Notes under the pieces: model-generated
Databases searched by the model: none
What the model was told of the DNA's origin: nothing
Seen by the model: only the letters and a program-made list of their open reading frames with translations
Made by a program: the position numbers and the translations under genes
Source of the DNA: Mariniblastus sp.
GTDB taxonomy: Bacteria > Planctomycetota > Planctomycetia > Pirellulales > Pirellulaceae
NCBI GenBank assembly: GCA_022447555.1
Contig: JAKVBF010000010.1
Span: 110,641-174,640 of the forward strand
Length of the DNA stretch: 64,000 nucleotides
Direction: 5' to 3'
In this document: one piece after another, positions 36,864 through 43,948 of the stretch
How the letters are laid out: each line of letters begins with the position of its first letter
Numbering within the stretch: position 1 is the stretch's first letter

Positions 36864-36962
36864 GAACCTGATTTAAAACAGCCTTTGGCAGCTGCATTTT
36901 GTCCGTCCCAACAGCGGGGTTTGGCCGGGATTTGGTTGCCATATTCGGCTCATTCTGTATCG

Positions 36963-36986
36963 AGCCCGGTTCTCGCCGGGCTTTTT
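36963..36986 (+). terminator. Terminator after DUF1559 gene
   Basis: AGCCCGG-TTCTCG-CCGGGCT followed by TTTT. It lies 100 bases after the stop at 36863 and before the start at 37023. Confidence 0.85.
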
Positions 36987-37022
36987 CTTTGGATTCATGA
37001 TACCTATCTGTGGAGTTGTATA

Positions 37023-38237
37023 ATGAGACGTGGACGAATATTTTTGAAGAGTGGGTGCCTGGCCTTGAGCTTGATGCTTGTTAGCCTCGCTCTTTCAGCG
37101 CAACAGGTCGATTTGATTGGGGTCGCCGAAATCGGTGGTGACCAGCTAGACCGATCGGGTTTGGAAGGCGAATTAGGTGAAGGGCTGACGAACAATATGT
37201 TGGGCGGTATTTCGGCAATGGAGTACACGGGCCGGGACGATTTATATATCGCCGTACCAGATCGGGGGCCTCTTGATGGTGCCGTTCAATGGCAGTGTCG
37301 TTTCAACTTGATGGAAATTAAAATTCCTAAAACTGGAAAAGGACCGATCGCTTTTAAAACGGTCAAGACGACCATCTTGTCTGACGAAGAGCAGCGGCCA
37401 TTCACGGGTTCGGCAGCCCAATACCAGCCCAGCTCATCTTCGGCGGGTCGACTCGACCCGGAAGGTGTTCGGTTGGGTGCCAATGGGAATATTTATCTCT
37501 CCGACGAATATGGGCCTCACCTTTTTGAAATGAGAATGGACGGGGCAATGGTCCGTCGGCTTCCGGTTCCGAGTCGCTATCTCATAAAGAACCCCGGTCT
37601 GGATAAAGCAGATGAAAATGGGAAAAACAACTGGGGCAGATCATGTAATCGGGGTATGGAATGCTTGGCACTTTCACCAGATAAAACCCTTCTCTACGGC
37701 TTGATGCAAAGCCCATTGCTACAGGATTCATTGCGGGATGAGAATTGCAAACCTTATGGGCTTAACTGTCGATTGATCGAATTTGACATCGCAACGGGTT
37801 CCAATCGTGAATTCTTGTACCAATTGGACAATAAGTCTAACAAGCTGAATGAGATCCTTGCGCTCAATGATCACGAGTTTTTAGTGATTGAGCGGGACGG
37901 AACTGAGGGGGCTGCGGCCGTGTGCAAGCAGATTAAACGGATTTCTCTTCAGGGAGCCAGTGAGATTCAGTGCCTGTCGCGATTGCCAGGCTGCAGGCTT
38001 CCGAGGAATGTTCGACCTGTCAAGAAAGCGACCTTTATTGATCTATTGGATCCTAAATTTGGTTTGGTGGGCGAGTCGATGCCCGAAAAGATTGAAAGCC
38101 TGACTTTTGGCCCAGACCTGGCGGATGGTCGTAAAACCCTGTTGGTCGTCTCAGACAACGATTTTGTCAAAGAGAAACCCACGATGATTTACGTATTCGC
38201 AATCTCTTCGGGACAGATGGTGGCGTCGGCCAAGTAA
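37023..38237 (+). CDS. Exported phytase-like esterase domain protein
   Basis: The 404-residue protein has a signal peptide (MRRGRIFLKSGCLALSLMLVSLALS..). The segment LDPEGVRLGANGNIYLSDEYG, with preceding AMEYTGRDDLYIAVPDRG, matches the esterase-like activity of phytase domain (a beta-propeller-type fold; PF13449). These exported proteins are predicted to hydrolyse phosphoesters or bind metal. A second conserved stretch is SRYLIKNPGLDKADENGKNN..CNRGMECLALSPD. The in-frame start at 36885 was rejected because it would run through the terminator of the previous gene. It is a single gene with its own terminator. Confidence 0.82.
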   Translation: MRRGRIFLKSGCLALSLMLVSLALSAQQVDLIGVAEIGGDQLDRSGLEGELGEGLTNNMLGGISAMEYTGRDDLYIAVPDRGPLDGAVQWQCRFNLMEIKIPKTGKGPIAFKTVKTTILSDEEQRPFTGSAAQYQPSSSSAGRLDPEGVRLGANGNIYLSDEYGPHLFEMRMDGAMVRRLPVPSRYLIKNPGLDKADENGKNNWGRSCNRGMECLALSPDKTLLYGLMQSPLLQDSLRDENCKPYGLNCRLIEFDIATGSNREFLYQLDNKSNKLNEILALNDHEFLVIERDGTEGAAAVCKQIKRISLQGASEIQCLSRLPGCRLPRNVRPVKKATFIDLLDPKFGLVGESMPEKIESLTFGPDLADGRKTLLVVSDNDFVKEKPTMIYVFAISSGQMVASAK

Positions 38238-38624: not shown

Positions 38625-39716
38625 ATGGCGAATCGCTCCAAACATAGTGTAAAAAAGAAAGTTCGATCGAGTTCGAGCAAAGCCAAGCGTACGGTAAAAA
38701 AAGTTCAGCCCGGATGGGCGCGGCTGCCCAATGAAGAACTCCTTGAGTGTCGTTTGTGCGATCTGGATCTTTCGTTAGAAGGGACGCAGGTCGAGCGGTG
38801 TCTGGACCGGTTGCACAGGGAGATTAAAAATTGCGGCCTTCGTTTAAAACCACATTATTGGATTAGTGACGATTGGTTTTCTCCCGACGGGATTCCAGGT
38901 ATCGCGGTCCCCTTCTATATGGCTCATCCAAGATTGCGCCGTTTGGAACGCAATCAGATGATGGAGGTTGAGGGTGGAACTCAGACGTCTTGCATGCAAA
39001 TCCTGCGACACGAGGCGGGACATGCCTTTGATACCGCCTACCGGTTGCATCGTCGGAAAAAATACCGGGAGCTATTTGGCAAGTACTCGACACCTTATCC
39101 GGAAACGTACAAGCCTGATCCGAATTCAAAAAGTTACGTGAACCATCTCAAGCCTTGGTACGCGCAAAGTCATCCATCAGAAGATTTCGCCGAGACGTTT
39201 GCGGTTTGGTTAAAGCCTCGAAGTATGTGGAGGCGGGATTATGCGGGATGGAAAGCGATTCGGAAACTCGAGTATGTTGACGAGTTGATGTCAGAGTTAA
39301 AATCCCGGCCTCCTAAATTCAAATCGCGCGCCAAAGTCGACCCGGTGAATCGATTAAAGCAAACACTCCGAGAACATTATGCGGAACGATTGGCGTGCTA
39401 CGATCTGAGTTGGCATGAAGCGTTGGACTCGGAGCTTAAAAAACTCTTTCCCCAGATTGCCAAGAGTCGCCGAAGTGAGCCTGCCAGCAATTTTCTTCAG
39501 AAAAACAGAAAAGAGTTAACCCGACTCGTAGCGCAATGGACTGGTGAATGCCACTACAATGTCGATCAAGTGGTGCGTGAAATGATTGCTCGCTGTTGCG
39601 AACAAAAGTTGTTTGCCAGTGTGAGTCGTGCCAAGACATTGCAGAACACTGTGGCGATGTTAACAGCGCACACCATGCGAAACCTACACGGAGGAAACCA
39701 CCGGGTTGCCCTATGA
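38625..39716 (+). CDS. Putative zinc-binding metallopeptidase
   Basis: The 363-residue protein contains the zinc protease motif HEAGH (residues 129-133, in LRHEAGHAFDTAYRLH) and a likely third ligand in the segment SEDFAETFAVW (Glu186 or Glu190). This is the pattern of a planctomycetal family of putative zinc-binding metallopeptidases. Other markers are PHYWISDDWFSPDGIPGIAVPFYMAHPRL and GKYSTPYPETYKPDPNSK. There is no signal peptide; the N-terminus is very basic. The ATG at 38625 is chosen; one at 38598 would add nine residues. Its stop codon overlaps the next start by four bases (ATGA), so it is translated together with the ATP-grasp ligase. The substrate is unknown. Confidence 0.85.
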   Translation: MANRSKHSVKKKVRSSSSKAKRTVKKVQPGWARLPNEELLECRLCDLDLSLEGTQVERCLDRLHREIKNCGLRLKPHYWISDDWFSPDGIPGIAVPFYMAHPRLRRLERNQMMEVEGGTQTSCMQILRHEAGHAFDTAYRLHRRKKYRELFGKYSTPYPETYKPDPNSKSYVNHLKPWYAQSHPSEDFAETFAVWLKPRSMWRRDYAGWKAIRKLEYVDELMSELKSRPPKFKSRAKVDPVNRLKQTLREHYAERLACYDLSWHEALDSELKKLFPQIAKSRRSEPASNFLQKNRKELTRLVAQWTGECHYNVDQVVREMIARCCEQKLFASVSRAKTLQNTVAMLTAHTMRNLHGGNHRVAL

Positions 39717-40741
39717 AAAAGTTGCGTGCGCTGGTGCTGATGCACGAGTCACTGGTTCCACCCAAGAGCATTGAAGGCTACACCGACGAAGAGATACTTG
39801 AGTGGAAGACGGAATTTGACGTTGTCACCACGCTAAAAGATATTGGACACGAAGTCCTTCCATTAGGGGTCTACGATGACCTGGGGGATATCCGCCGGGC
39901 CATCAAGGACTTCAAACCGCATGTTCATTTTAACTTGCTGGAAGAGTTCCACGGCGTCGGCGTCTATGATCACCACGTGGTCAGCTACCTCGAGCTGATG
40001 AAACAGCATTACACGGGATGCAATCCTCGAGGCCTGTTGCTATCCCATGACAAACCGCTGGCCAAAAAAATCCTGACCTTTCATCGGATTCATACCCCCG
40101 GATTTTATGTCATCCCCAAAGGTAAAAAACCACGACGCCCGGCAGGTTTTAAATACCCATTGCTGGTGAAATCCGTCTCGGAAGATGCTTCGTTAGGAAT
40201 CACTCAGTCGTCGATCGTTTACGACGACGAAAAGTTGTTTGACCGTATCGATTACGTTCACGCCGAGACACAAACCGACGCACTCATTGAGACCTACATT
40301 GAAGGCCGTGAATTGTATGTTGGTGTAATGGGCAATCGTCGGCTGACGACCTTGCCTGTATGGGAGATGGTCTTTAAGAATGCTCCGGCTGGGATGCCTC
40401 AAATTGCGACGTCCCGAGTGAAATGGGATCTCGAATATCAAAAAAAATTGGGGATCGATACGGTGGCGGCCGAAGGCCTTGATCCCTCTACGGAGCAACG
40501 GATTTTAAAGACCTGCAAACGGGTTTACCGGGCATTGAGTTTGAGTGGCTATGCAAGAATGGATCTCCGGTTGAGCGATGACGGTAAGGTCTACGTGTTA
40601 GAGGCCAACCCGAACCCGAATCTTTCGTTCGGCGAAGATTTCTCAGAGTCCGCTGATAAAGTGGGTGTGAGTTATCAGGTTTTGCTGCAGAAAATTATAA
40701 CGCTTGGTTTGAATTATCAGGCCGAATGGCGAGCTGTCTAA
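39713..40741 (+). CDS. ATP-grasp ligase, D-Ala-D-Ala ligase family-like
   Basis: The 342-residue protein has an ATP-grasp fold of the Ddl type: the N-terminal domain (LRALVLMHESLVPPK), KPLAKKILTFHRIHTPGF, ATP-binding KYPLLVKSVSEDASLGIT, a central-domain ELYVGVMGN and the metal-binding C-terminus RMDLRLSDDGKVYVLEANPNPNLS. In true Ddl enzymes the substrate loops read roughly EGSSxG and NTxPGxTxxS. Here they are SEDASLG (about residue 156) and ANPNPNLSFGED (about residue 298), so another amino acid or peptide is likely joined. The start at 39713 (ATGA overlap) gives the family-typical N-terminus; the long frame from 39596 lies inside the upstream gene. Likely co-translated with the metallopeptidase. 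Confidence 0.85.
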   Translation: MKKLRALVLMHESLVPPKSIEGYTDEEILEWKTEFDVVTTLKDIGHEVLPLGVYDDLGDIRRAIKDFKPHVHFNLLEEFHGVGVYDHHVVSYLELMKQHYTGCNPRGLLLSHDKPLAKKILTFHRIHTPGFYVIPKGKKPRRPAGFKYPLLVKSVSEDASLGITQSSIVYDDEKLFDRIDYVHAETQTDALIETYIEGRELYVGVMGNRRLTTLPVWEMVFKNAPAGMPQIATSRVKWDLEYQKKLGIDTVAAEGLDPSTEQRILKTCKRVYRALSLSGYARMDLRLSDDGKVYVLEANPNPNLSFGEDFSESADKVGVSYQVLLQKIITLGLNYQAEWRAV

Positions 40742-40769
40742 TAGTAGCTTGGATTCTATCGCTTCTAAT

Positions 40770-41723
40770 ATGACCCCCTCAAAAATTGAATCGAATCGTG
40801 ATTTAAGGAAGCCGATCAGTGAGTACGATCGTCTAACCGGCATTGCATTGCTTCTGGCGGTGGGTGCCGTTTTCCTGCTGGTCAATTTTTTCTGTGCGCC
40901 CGTAACGACTTTGGGACTCCCGAGTCTTAGGGATGTCTTTCTTCTGACAATCTATATGGTCATGGGCGGTTTGCTGATGTCAGAGCCCGCTGTGTTGCTC
41001 ATTTGGCTGATCTGTGGGGGCGGTTCAGCAGCTCGGCGTTGGGCGTTGGTTACGGTCGGGGGATTGGTATTAGGAGCCTCTCTGTATTTGGGTTTTTCAT
41101 TTTCCTATCTCAATATTGAACGCCCGTTGTGGCGACAGCTCGATTGGGTTTTTAGTTCACCTTTTATGCTTGTTCCCTTAACGGTTTGGTCATTGGGGAT
41201 ACCGGTGGTTTTATGCCATAAAATCCGGGGTTGGCAATTAAGAAAAGAGGGTGAGTTGGTACCTCGGATTTCTCTCAGCACAAAAGATTTGTTTGTGTTG
41301 ACGGGGCTGTCGGCGTTTGCCATCGGCGCGGTTCAGCTGTTTTGCAGTTTGCGATATGCTGATCCTCAATTGCGGCTCCAAATATGGCTTCTGGCTGGGG
41401 GCATCGCGGTACTGGCGTTCGGAGTTTCGCTTCTATTCATCGTCACGGCGATAGGATGTTTGATGCGCGAACGGGGGTTTTGGTTTTGGTTTTGGATTTG
41501 GCCTGCCGCGACGATCTCAGCAACCACTGGTGGGTTAATGCTGGTCTCTTTGTTTGGATTCTTTGGATTCGCCGATTTCTTTGCAATCCCCCAACCGACC
41601 CAGCGGTTTTCTGATTGGATCGTATTATTTGCAGTTTGGCCGTTGAGCTACTCAATGACGTTGGTCATTTTTCTAGGCGGTCTGCGATTGCTAGGATATC
41701 GCTTATATAAAGGAGCTCGATAA
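40770..41723 (+). CDS. Polytopic membrane protein of unknown function
   Basis: The 317-residue protein has a short soluble N-terminus (about 25 residues) and about seven hydrophobic spans (GIALLLAVGAVFLLVNFF; VFLLTIYMVMGGLLM; WALVTVGGLVLGASLYLGF; and further ones up to YSMTLVIFLGGLRLL). No known family was recognised. It starts 28 bases after the ATP-grasp gene, so it is probably the third gene of the same operon and may export or anchor the product of the metallopeptidase/ligase pair. The ATG at 40770 is preferred to an in-frame TTG at 40749, which is only 8 bases after the stop of the ligase gene. Confidence 0.75.
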   Translation: MTPSKIESNRDLRKPISEYDRLTGIALLLAVGAVFLLVNFFCAPVTTLGLPSLRDVFLLTIYMVMGGLLMSEPAVLLIWLICGGGSAARRWALVTVGGLVLGASLYLGFSFSYLNIERPLWRQLDWVFSSPFMLVPLTVWSLGIPVVLCHKIRGWQLRKEGELVPRISLSTKDLFVLTGLSAFAIGAVQLFCSLRYADPQLRLQIWLLAGGIAVLAFGVSLLFIVTAIGCLMRERGFWFWFWIWPAATISATTGGLMLVSLFGFFGFADFFAIPQPTQRFSDWIVLFAVWPLSYSMTLVIFLGGLRLLGYRLYKGAR

Positions 41724-41761: not shown

Positions 41762-43657
41762 TCAGTTGTCTTTTTTGGGATCAGGTTTTTTGCCAGTAGC
41801 CCAAGCCTTGCTCCTCGCTTTTTCTTCCTCGGACCGATCTTTCATGAGATTATACGACAATCGCCAAGTGTTGTTGGGTCGCGGTCCCAGCGTCACAGGC
41901 AGGTGAGTCAACCGGCCTCCACGACTGATTAAAAAATCGAGTTCGTCACCTACTTGATACTTGTTGATCCATGATTCAATCGAGCCTGTTAGACGGTAAT
42001 CGTTGATTGCAAGAATCTCGTCGTCTGGATTCAGGCCGGCTTTCGTTGCGGGAGAGTCTGCAACGACCGAGGAAACGGTGTTATCCGATATTTTCGCGCC
42101 CAACCAGGGTATCCGAGAAACTGCTTCTTTGGGTGTTTCTGTTTGCTCTTTGGAATCGGTCCCTTTGCTTGACTTAGATTGGATCGTGCGGCGGCCTGAG
42201 AAGTGCATTCCGAAATAATTCAAGGCCTCGCCGAAATCCAAATCGTCAGTACGATCCACCGACGATGCGAAAAATTCTTTGAGATCGCCTCCTGCGACTT
42301 CACTTGCCACGGCTCGGAAATCTGATGGTAAGTAGCCTGTATTTTGGAAGCGTTCGAACATGATTCGCATTACGTCATCCAAGCTTTTTTCGCCGTCGGT
42401 CATTGAACGTATTTTGGCATCTAAGAGGAAGGCCACGACCGCACCTTTACTGTAATAGCTGATGCGTGTGTTGGAGGCGTTTTCATCAGGTCGATAAAAT
42501 TTGATCCAGGTATCGTAGGATGAATCTTTGAGGCTTTGTTTTTTACGGCCCGGCGCATTTTTTACCGATTGAATGTCTTGGGATATTCCAGAAACTAACT
42601 CACGCGATGAAATTAGGTCCGCCCTGCAAAGTGCGATATTTTCGTAATAGCTGGTCACGCCTTCAGCCACCCAGAGAGATTTGACATAGACTTCATTTTC
42701 ATAGTCGTAATTGACCAATGGTTTGGGCCGCAGTCGGCGAACATTCCAGGTATGAAAGAACTCGTGACTGGCCAGTGCGAGCCATCGCTTGTAGCGACTT
42801 TTGTCACGAAATGACCATCGCCCTGTCATCATCAGGCAGCTGTTGTCATGTTCTAGGCCCCCGCTGCCCGCGCCAATGACGTTGATGAAGTGGTATTGCT
42901 TGTAGGGGATGGTGCCCCAGATTTCTTGATGGGCCTTTACGACTTTGGCGAGATCTTTGGCGACTTGCTCTCCATCCCAGTTGCCTTGTTCACCCACATT
43001 GACCAAAAAGTGCTGAACATCACTGACGAGGAACGGATAGATATTGAGGTTTCCGGCGACAATCGGACTATCAATCAGCTCGTCAAACGTTTTTGCGAAG
43101 TAAGCATTGGATATTTCGGGAAGCGGTGTCAGAGCCGTTGCGGAACGTTTCCAATTTTTTGGCATTTTCAGGACCACGCTATGTTCGGCATCGCGCAGTT
43201 CGGGTACGGAAAGGAATGTCGGCGCACCGTTGAGCACGGCATACTCGTTGTTTACGAAGTTTGTTCGGACTGATGCCTCACGACAGTAAACTCGGTACGA
43301 AACCACAAATGTTTTGAGCCCGATAGTATCGACTTGCCAGCGATTCTTACGAATCTTTTCCATCAAGAGTGGTTTGCCAGAAGTTGTTTCAGCTTCAAGG
43401 CTATCAATGTTTCTCGCATATTCGCGGATCAGATAGGATCCCGGTGTCCAGACTGGGATCATCAGTTGAGTTATATCGCCTATTGCAGGGACTCGCATCC
43501 GAACCTGAATATAGTGATTTTTCACGTCATTCAGATCGATTTCGTAGGCAATCGAAGCTGATTTTTCTTGTAGCTTGTTTGCCAAACAGGTGTAGGGGAA
43601 AGCAAGTAAGCAGAGCAGCCCGGGGATGATCAAGAGAGAATTCAGATAGCGGATCAT
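41762..43657 (-). CDS. M61 family metallopeptidase with PDZ domain
   Basis: This glycyl-aminopeptidase-like M61 protein is exported: the hydrophobic N-terminus MIRYLNSLLIIPGLLCLLAFPYTC is a signal sequence. The zinc site is HEFFH (in LALASHEFFHTWNVRRLRPK, about residue 298) with the third ligand Glu in WVAEGVTSYYE. Upstream, IPVWTPGSYLIREYARNI and FINVIGAGSGGLEHDNS are family-typical. A C-terminal PDZ domain (LGAKISDNTVSSVVADSPATKAGLNPDDEI) can bind peptide ends. At 631 residues it is normal for the family. It should act in the periplasm on peptides or damaged proteins. The in-frame start at 43723 is less likely because it lies before the signal peptide. Confidence 0.93.
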   Translation of the reverse strand: MIRYLNSLLIIPGLLCLLAFPYTCLANKLQEKSASIAYEIDLNDVKNHYIQVRMRVPAIGDITQLMIPVWTPGSYLIREYARNIDSLEAETTSGKPLLMEKIRKNRWQVDTIGLKTFVVSYRVYCREASVRTNFVNNEYAVLNGAPTFLSVPELRDAEHSVVLKMPKNWKRSATALTPLPEISNAYFAKTFDELIDSPIVAGNLNIYPFLVSDVQHFLVNVGEQGNWDGEQVAKDLAKVVKAHQEIWGTIPYKQYHFINVIGAGSGGLEHDNSCLMMTGRWSFRDKSRYKRWLALASHEFFHTWNVRRLRPKPLVNYDYENEVYVKSLWVAEGVTSYYENIALCRADLISSRELVSGISQDIQSVKNAPGRKKQSLKDSSYDTWIKFYRPDENASNTRISYYSKGAVVAFLLDAKIRSMTDGEKSLDDVMRIMFERFQNTGYLPSDFRAVASEVAGGDLKEFFASSVDRTDDLDFGEALNYFGMHFSGRRTIQSKSSKGTDSKEQTETPKEAVSRIPWLGAKISDNTVSSVVADSPATKAGLNPDDEILAINDYRLTGSIESWINKYQVGDELDFLISRGGRLTHLPVTLGPRPNNTWRLSYNLMKDRSEEEKARSKAWATGKKPDPKKDN

Positions 43658-43948
43658 GTTGATGAAGTCCTTGAGACTGTATGGACCAGAGCGGCAGATC
43701 GACGGCTTCGATTGATTGCCCAATCTTGCGCCGGGCCGATCCTTTTATAATACCATGTGATAGCGTGAATTCGTCATGCCTCTTTTGCGACAAAGGTCCG
43801 AGCTCCTTCGTTTCCGAGCAAACGCTTAGAAAATGGAGTGTTTTCGATCGCTTCGTAATGCCGTGTGTTTAGGGACGATCGCCAAAATCACTATGATTGG
43901 AAGTCATTCCTTCGATAGGGGTGTCATGGCACTGCCTTGGGTGCCCAT

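Follow-up and report, generated by a model that had tools for sequence, protein, structure and literature searches.

A paired Peptidase_Mx metallopeptidase and Ddl-fold ATP-grasp ligase in Mariniblastus sp. and its relatives: a conserved gene module and candidate writer-eraser system

Why are a zinc metallopeptidase and an ATP-grasp ligase with the fold of D-alanine-D-alanine ligase (Ddl) encoded in overlapping reading frames, and what might they do together? The question is raised by a locus of Mariniblastus sp. (Planctomycetota, Pirellulaceae) within a 64,000-nucleotide stretch of contig JAKVBF010000010.1 (assembly GCA_022447555.1, positions 110,641 to 174,640), which is referred to below as the window. 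A first reading of the locus from its letters alone (the sequence-only reading) had proposed an operon of peptidase, ligase and membrane protein for the cutting and re-ligation or capping of a peptide or envelope precursor. The first two genes hold up as real and as a module; the third gene lies outside it. The pair is interpreted here, with about an even chance of being right, as a writer and an eraser, the ligase adding an amine-bearing group that the coupled zinc peptidase removes or trims. The two genes and their junction are as follows (ORF, open reading frame).

38625..39716, + strand: zinc metallopeptidase, Peptidase_Mx (PF15887), 363 amino acids (ORF and Pfam)
39713..40741, + strand: Ddl-fold ATP-grasp ligase without the D-Ala-D-Ala substrate residues, 342 amino acids (ORF, Pfam, NCBIfam and AlphaFold2 model)
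39713..39716, + strand: ATGA, overlap of the ligase start codon and the peptidase stop codon (ORF coordinates)

The peptidase ORF begins with an ATG at 38625 and closes with a TGA at 39714-39716, while that of the ligase runs from an ATG at 39713 to a stop codon ending at 40741; the four-base overlap described in the sequence-only reading is exact. The HEAGH zinc motif that it had picked out is likewise present in the first protein, which matches Pfam Peptidase_Mx at 38.1 bits (cut-off 27) over profile positions 84-165 of 236 only; the Pfam peptidase families matched are Mx and, under its cut-off, Mx1. The ligase matches PF07478 (Dala_Dala_lig_C) at 89.9 bits (cut-off 24).

The pairing is conserved well beyond the window. 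In an even set of 294 genomes sampled from the Planctomycetota, 69 hold a match to the peptidase and 255 a match of ligase type, which in many cases is weak. The prospect that homologues would never be neighbours in other genomes fails outright: for all 50 of the strongest peptidase matches the ligase lies directly downstream on the same strand, within 176 bases as measured by alignment ends, and none of the 50 is without a ligase, an arrangement that is far beyond chance. A species-level collection, with one genome per species, gave at least 593 matching stretches (580 confirmed as peptidase relatives). Among the best 80 of these at least 580 relatives, which are the closest ones and do not describe distant paralogs, the ligase is directly downstream in 78; in the remaining two (L099 and L108) the contig ends 82 and 385 bases past the peptidase match. 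Within this close clade the linkage is near-obligate. The exact four-base overlap recurs in 57 of 79 pairs, the window included (51 ATGA and 6 GTGA), which suggests matched synthesis of the two proteins. Viewed from the ligase, a peptidase is adjacent to 50 of the 56 closest ligases of the phylum sample; three others (G003, G131 and G081) are not next to a peptidase, and three (G266, G196 and G063) belong to genomes without any peptidase match, where a relaxed search around the lone ligase gave no credible peptidase remnant (only 926 bases being present upstream on the contig of G196). Ligases that sometimes occur alone, and close peptidases that never do, are as expected if an eraser is useless without its writer. 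The idea that Mx peptidases are generally tied to ATP-grasp enzymes was considered and rejected, a second Mx protein of Methyloceanibacter having no ATP-grasp neighbour recognised among the nearby ORFs (by eye, no profile scan).

Those rows of the analysed set that have a named phylum fall into eight, namely Planctomycetota, Nitrospirota, Acidobacteriota, Pseudomonadota, Gemmatimonadota, Myxococcota, Methylomirabilota and Nitrospinota. Many of the module genomes are metagenome assemblies that may be misbinned; the module is also found in the named strains Rhodopirellula baltica, R. sallentina and Methyloceanibacter superfactus. Over 103 pairs, peptidase and ligase distances correlate with a Mantel r of 0.79 (permutation maximum 0.24), and both proteins have the same nearest neighbour in 53 of the 103; the pair is inherited jointly. 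A quick concatenated tree of 71 rows requires 12 changes of phylum label, against a minimum of 7 and a shuffled mean of 33.5, so the pair appears mostly old and host-inherited, with some transfer or misbinning. Among 28 genomes of the window's genus, 24 hold both genes, three hold neither and one holds the peptidase alone, its end lying 82 bases from the end of a contig. A Peptidase_Mx match above cut-off was obtained in 12 of 12 module genomes searched and in none of 14 controls.

The catalytic residues of both proteins are intact. In the peptidase, H129, E130, H133, Y179, H183, E186, D187 and E190 are the same in all 103 sequences, which makes an active zinc hydrolase likely, with H129-E130-x-x-H133, Y179 and E186 as its likely active site. 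Y179 and E186 stand seven residues apart, a spacing that we take to be that of PPEP-1 and lethal factor, and E186 is thus the likely third zinc ligand. The catalytic part (residues about 50-228) aligns with the M34 fold at a VIA-align Z of 10.1 (139 residues, 3.3 Å) and with PPEP-3 at 8.3, in a range (Z under about 13) that can be common for mostly helical models. The top VIA-align rows are presumably all HExxH enzymes, and this, together with the agreement in motif, speaks for an M34/PPEP-type match. A Foldseek search was weak (best E 0.16), and no credible relative of solved structure was found by sequence. The module peptidase has the HExxH catalytic core in common with M34/PPEP-type enzymes and differs from them in an additional helical C-terminal part (about 229-355), which lies outside the fold matches, and in having its gene tied to that of a ligase. 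Inspection of the peptidase by eye (no predictor run) revealed no signal peptide, and both proteins are probably cytosolic.

The AlphaFold2 model of the ligase (pLDDT 93) displays a Ddl fold, and every one of the 50 best PDB matches listed is a Ddl or a Van-type ligase, with TM scores of up to 0.76 by query length; together with the PF07478 match, this bears out the identity proposed in the sequence-only reading. K114, K153, E193, E200, K237, R282, D284, E297 and N299 are kept. Across the 103 pairs, the ATP/Mg residues K114, K153, E193 and E200 occur in all 103, D284 in 102, and E297 and N299 in 101. In the 25 of 36 NCBIfam matches shown, the protein nevertheless falls far under every cut-off (at best 115.9 of 243; TIGR01205, 98.5 against 245.65), and the substrate pocket differs from that of Ddl. 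In the window protein the pocket consists of A159, W238, N303 and E308-D309, at positions that we take to be S150, Y216, G276 and S281 of E. coli DdlB. Canonical Ddl sequences from module- or ligase-bearing genomes, 13 of 15 rows being readable and two in the wrong frame, have Ser, Tyr, Gly and Ser at these positions in 13 of 13 cases. The ligase, over 103 pairs, has Ala (75), Gly (22) or Ser (6) at the first and Trp (85), His (14) or Phe (4) at the second. Position 303 is mainly Asn, Asp, Gln or Glu, with Gly not among its six commonest letters (and in none of 50 in a smaller comparison), and position 308 is Glu in 96 and Asp in 3, against Ser in all 13 Ddl rows. The substrate residues of Ddl are thus lost, and the altered loops SEDASLG and ANPNPNLSFGED read as first quoted, in support of a peptidase made in step with an unusual Ddl-like ligase whose substrate loops are not those of Ddl. 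In the alignment, E308-[D/E]309 stands where Ddl mostly has Ser-Leu; so acidic a site would have the second substrate present an amine rather than a carboxylate, which suggests amine specificity. In short, fold and ATP/Mg residues are common to the ligase and Ddl, whereas replaced substrate residues, scores under family cut-offs and coexistence with a true Ddl set the ligase apart.

The third gene of the window, which begins with an ATG 28 bases past the ligase stop as the sequence-only reading had it, makes the three genes contiguous there.

40770..41723, + strand: multi-span membrane protein of no assigned family; a neighbour only, outside the conserved module

The product is a membrane protein, with eight hydrophobic stretches by a simple Kyte-Doolittle scan in place of the seven spans first proposed, and with no Pfam family above its cut-off. 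Among the neighbourhoods searched, relatives outside the window are confined to two congeners, one directly after the ligase (G303, 34% identity) and one after a 530-codon ORF (G338, locus L095, 26% identity). None was detected in the other neighbourhoods at E values of up to 1e-10 in the best-80 set and up to 1e-3 elsewhere, where a faster-evolving relative could be missed. The protein was consequently rejected as a third component, and with it the proposal that it exports a product of the system. Clustering of 121 neighbourhoods (two being second copies of others) used a custom ORF caller with rough gene boundaries; eight clusters of 34-107 loci were disregarded, the example members being antisense or out of frame inside the pair or across a gene junction. 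The ligase cluster is present in 116 loci and the peptidase cluster in 115, and no further genuine gene cluster occurs in more than nine of the 121. A short precursor gene had also been anticipated near homologous loci: among 3521 ORFs of 25-90 amino acids in 149 flanks of 81 loci there is no widespread cluster (in these loci only), the largest being found at seven of the 81, all in the Rhodopirellula/Rubripirellula clade.

As writer and eraser, ligase and hydrolase would act, probably in the cytosol and perhaps as a physical complex, on one common amide-linked substrate. The ATP-grasp ligase would activate a carboxylate as an acyl phosphate, which would be coupled to an amine held in the acidic pocket (E308, D/E309), at the site that in Ddl receives the carboxylate of the second D-Ala. 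The Mx zinc peptidase, whose translation is coupled to that of the ligase, would then cleave the product or trim it back, its hydrolysis reversing the ligation, and the modification would be both written and erased. Matched synthesis, together with ligases that sometimes occur alone and close peptidases that never do, makes this the best reading of the pair.

Known systems offer partial precedents. In VanA-VanX of vancomycin resistance, a Ddl homologue likewise has a zinc peptidase encoded beside it; VanX, however, is an M15-type D,D-dipeptidase, VanH is included in the cluster and the system acts on peptidoglycan precursors, whereas the module has a Peptidase_Mx, no recurrent third gene and no dependence on peptidoglycan genes. 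In the glutamylation of ribosomal protein S6 in Pseudomonas, an ATP-grasp ligase (RimK) and a peptidase (RimB) are reported to be co-encoded (PMC11957791, PMC12239564). RimB is described as removing the glutamates added by RimK and as stimulating RimK (PMC11957791), and by analogy the proposed pair would have one member that adds and one that removes residues. The parts differ: RimK ligates glutamate and RimB is an aspartic peptidase resembling retropepsin, whereas the module combines a Ddl fold with a zinc HExxH enzyme, and no RimK-type or aspartic peptidase family is among its Pfam matches (PF07478 and PF15887 being found). In the related rlo operon, mutations in transmembrane RloB and ATP-grasp RloC are reported to rescue the loss of RloA proteases (PMC12239564).

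Several points weigh against a writer and eraser. Linkage alone does not tell whether the peptidase reverses the ligation, trims ahead of it or takes another step of the same pathway, and an assay was found for none of the module proteins. The amine reading of the acidic pocket comes from residues matched in a Ddl alignment, not from a bound structure. Linkage decays in distant peptidase paralogs: seven of the 27 weaker peptidase matches of the phylum sample lie within 6.5 kb of a compared ligase row and one satisfies the adjacency rule used with the genes in standard order, both counted only against a selected set of ligase rows, so the tight linkage belongs to one clade. Few genomes, most of them incompletely assembled, underlie the argument from direction, that ligases but not close peptidases occur alone. 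The window peptidase has a basic N-terminal tail, which was tried as a pointer to a ribosomal target, but such a tail is not a general feature: 29 of 110 tails (with script-guessed starts) carry a charge of +4 or more and 47 one of zero or less. Finally, the pair has come apart in at least three of the 24 genomes of the genus that have both genes. By coordinates the genes are adjacent in 19; in G294 they are 3.3 kb apart with an opposite-strand ORF between them, and in G298 and G305 each gene has a contig of its own, with other ORFs and no peptidase match in the available 0.9 kb and 2.7 kb upstream of the ligase. In G301 and G306 they are also on different contigs, with the ligase so near a contig end that adjacency cannot be judged. 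Retention of both genes in at least three genomes with separated loci indicates that the two are kept even after linkage is broken.

Of the alternatives, the one that survives best, although unlikely, is a sequential pathway in which the peptidase cuts the end of a protein or peptide and exposes an acceptor, to which the ligase then adds a residue. The peptidase is first in the operon, with the four-base overlap in 57 of 79 pairs, and its catalytic part is similar to endopeptidases of the M34/PPEP type (Z 10.1 and about 8), enzymes that make internal cuts in a chain and do not remove single residues. Such an order of events is harder to reconcile with the six of 56 close ligases that have no adjacent peptidase, three of them in peptidase-free genomes, if the peptidase must act first, and no widespread gene for a short substrate is present in the flanks.

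Somewhat less probable still is a small-molecule pathway, in which the ligase would make a dipeptide or an amino acid-amine conjugate, as an osmolyte or store, for the peptidase to recycle. Ligases of this kind that act on small molecules include MysD and Ddl. Distant relatives of the ligase (26-36% identity) occur in tandem next to a GNAT acetyltransferase, joined in L078 and L082 by a lysine 2,3-aminomutase-like enzyme, a setting indicative of amide chemistry on small molecules. No third gene recurs beside the pair in more than nine of 121 loci, however, and a dipeptidase with an M34/PPEP-like fold would be out of the ordinary. The tandem clusters resemble the module in their Ddl-like ATP-grasp enzymes and differ from it in having two ligases in tandem, with Ser, Ala or Gly in place of Glu at position 308; no match to the module peptidase was found in the available stretches of L078, L080 and L082. 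The tandem pairs lie at L078 5900-10144, L080 7464-10320, L082 5229-9960 and L211 4358-10040. The GNAT protein was seen in L078 and L080 (Pfam) and in L082 (by eye), the radical SAM enzyme of the aminomutase type in L078 and L082 (Pfam), and an acetylated beta-lysine peptide is possibly the product of these clusters. L211, from a Methyloceanibacter genome, has a similar arrangement with a deacetylase-like protein (by eye only), and L212 4973-7602 (Gemmatimonadaceae) displays another two-gene arrangement with a Ddl-like ATP-grasp enzyme, the second protein of which seems by eye to have a SET-like C-terminal part.

It is very improbable that the ligase serves as the D-Ala-D-Ala ligase of the Pirellulaceae. 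The case for this role is that no canonical Ddl above the NCBIfam cut-off was found in any of 25 genomes (that of the window and 24 relatives; controls above cut-off in 10 of 14) or in any of five Rhodopirellula-group genomes, and that R. baltica is reported to have peptidoglycan (PMC4432640). Yet a separate canonical Ddl above cut-off coexists with the module in 11 of 16 other module genomes of several phyla, the other five, in which a profile search found none, consisting of three Rhodopirellula and of two strains placed with these in the concatenated tree. Likewise, a canonical Ddl accompanies the close ligase in three of four planctomycetes (G257, G266 and G042), the fourth (G185) falling 2 bits under the cut-off; G257, with the pair, and G266, with the ligase alone, belong to the same class as the window and have five PF08245 proteins and a canonical Ddl in addition to the ligase. 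Three near-complete genomes of the window's family have neither this ligase nor a canonical Ddl. The window genome (contigs C10 and C34) has only MurE-like and FolC-like PF08245 proteins (named by eye), and that of R. baltica (L155) a single PF08245 match. Mur_ligase_M proteins number one or two in the window genome and four Rhodopirellula-group genomes, and five or six in four other ligase-bearing genomes. Essential peptidoglycan genes have been reported by other methods in all species analysed by Jeske et al. (PMC4432640), and the profile searches made here do not prove their absence. On coexistence with a true Ddl, family scores and pocket residues, including the replaced substrate residues of Ddl, the ligase was rejected as a peptidoglycan Ddl. 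The envelope precursor of the sequence-only reading is similarly disfavoured as far as peptidoglycan is concerned, the module occurring in genomes both with and without a detectable canonical Ddl and full Mur ligase set. Ddl-type matches from this ligase family should therefore not count as evidence of peptidoglycan: in the Rhodopirellula-group genomes and, where it is present, in the window's genus the module ligase is the top Ddl-like match, and no canonical Ddl was found in either.

A ribosomal peptide pathway of the graspetide type, with the membrane protein as exporter, is largely refuted and has scarcely any probability left. ATP-grasp enzyme, protease and membrane protein are a familiar set-up for such peptides, and the three genes are contiguous in the window; against this, the membrane gene is not conserved, no short ORF recurs beyond seven of 81 loci (149 flanks), and the ligase is closest to Ddl by fold and family.

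A defence or toxin-antitoxin pair can equally be dismissed as highly improbable, since the compact overlapping unit and the viral relatives of the peptidase catalytic part that recommend it are outweighed by the lack of any PADLOC match (three proteins searched) or plasmid match (peptidase query only), by a deep tree that largely follows phyla (12 changes, minimum 7, shuffled 33.5) and by the lack of a ligase in the available stretch for 34 of 35 viral relatives. PHROGs gave no match for two proteins, and with nothing from PADLOC, PHROGs or plasmid searches a defence, plasmid or phage origin was rejected. The viral relatives are found on 35 contigs. The 34 without a ligase (L214-L247) are 27-39% identical to the catalytic part, with no match to the end of the C-terminal part, and L213 has both genes and is the sole viral relative to align to that end.

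Around the module, the window encodes a protein with a phytase-like esterase domain (PF13449) upstream, at 36885-38237, and an M61 glycyl aminopeptidase with a PDZ domain on the minus strand, at 41762-43723. ORFs of the same cluster as the latter also occur close to the module in L095, L097 and L142, three close relatives.

No account of the peptidase-ligase pair was found in the open literature at the level of search results, which did not cover the amidoligase survey of Iyer et al. 2009, where an earlier mention is likely. The pair is a peptidase/ATP-grasp pair assembled from new parts, and its genes are so strictly paired across eight named phyla, and so free of other conserved neighbours, that it probably has one defined job. 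It is tentatively proposed that this job is a dedicated, reversible, ATP-driven modification of peptide type on a widely conserved target in at least eight phyla, by a system easily mistaken for a Ddl and a stray protease. If the pair does act as writer and eraser, it would represent another, independently built peptidase/ATP-grasp modification system beside RimK/RimB.

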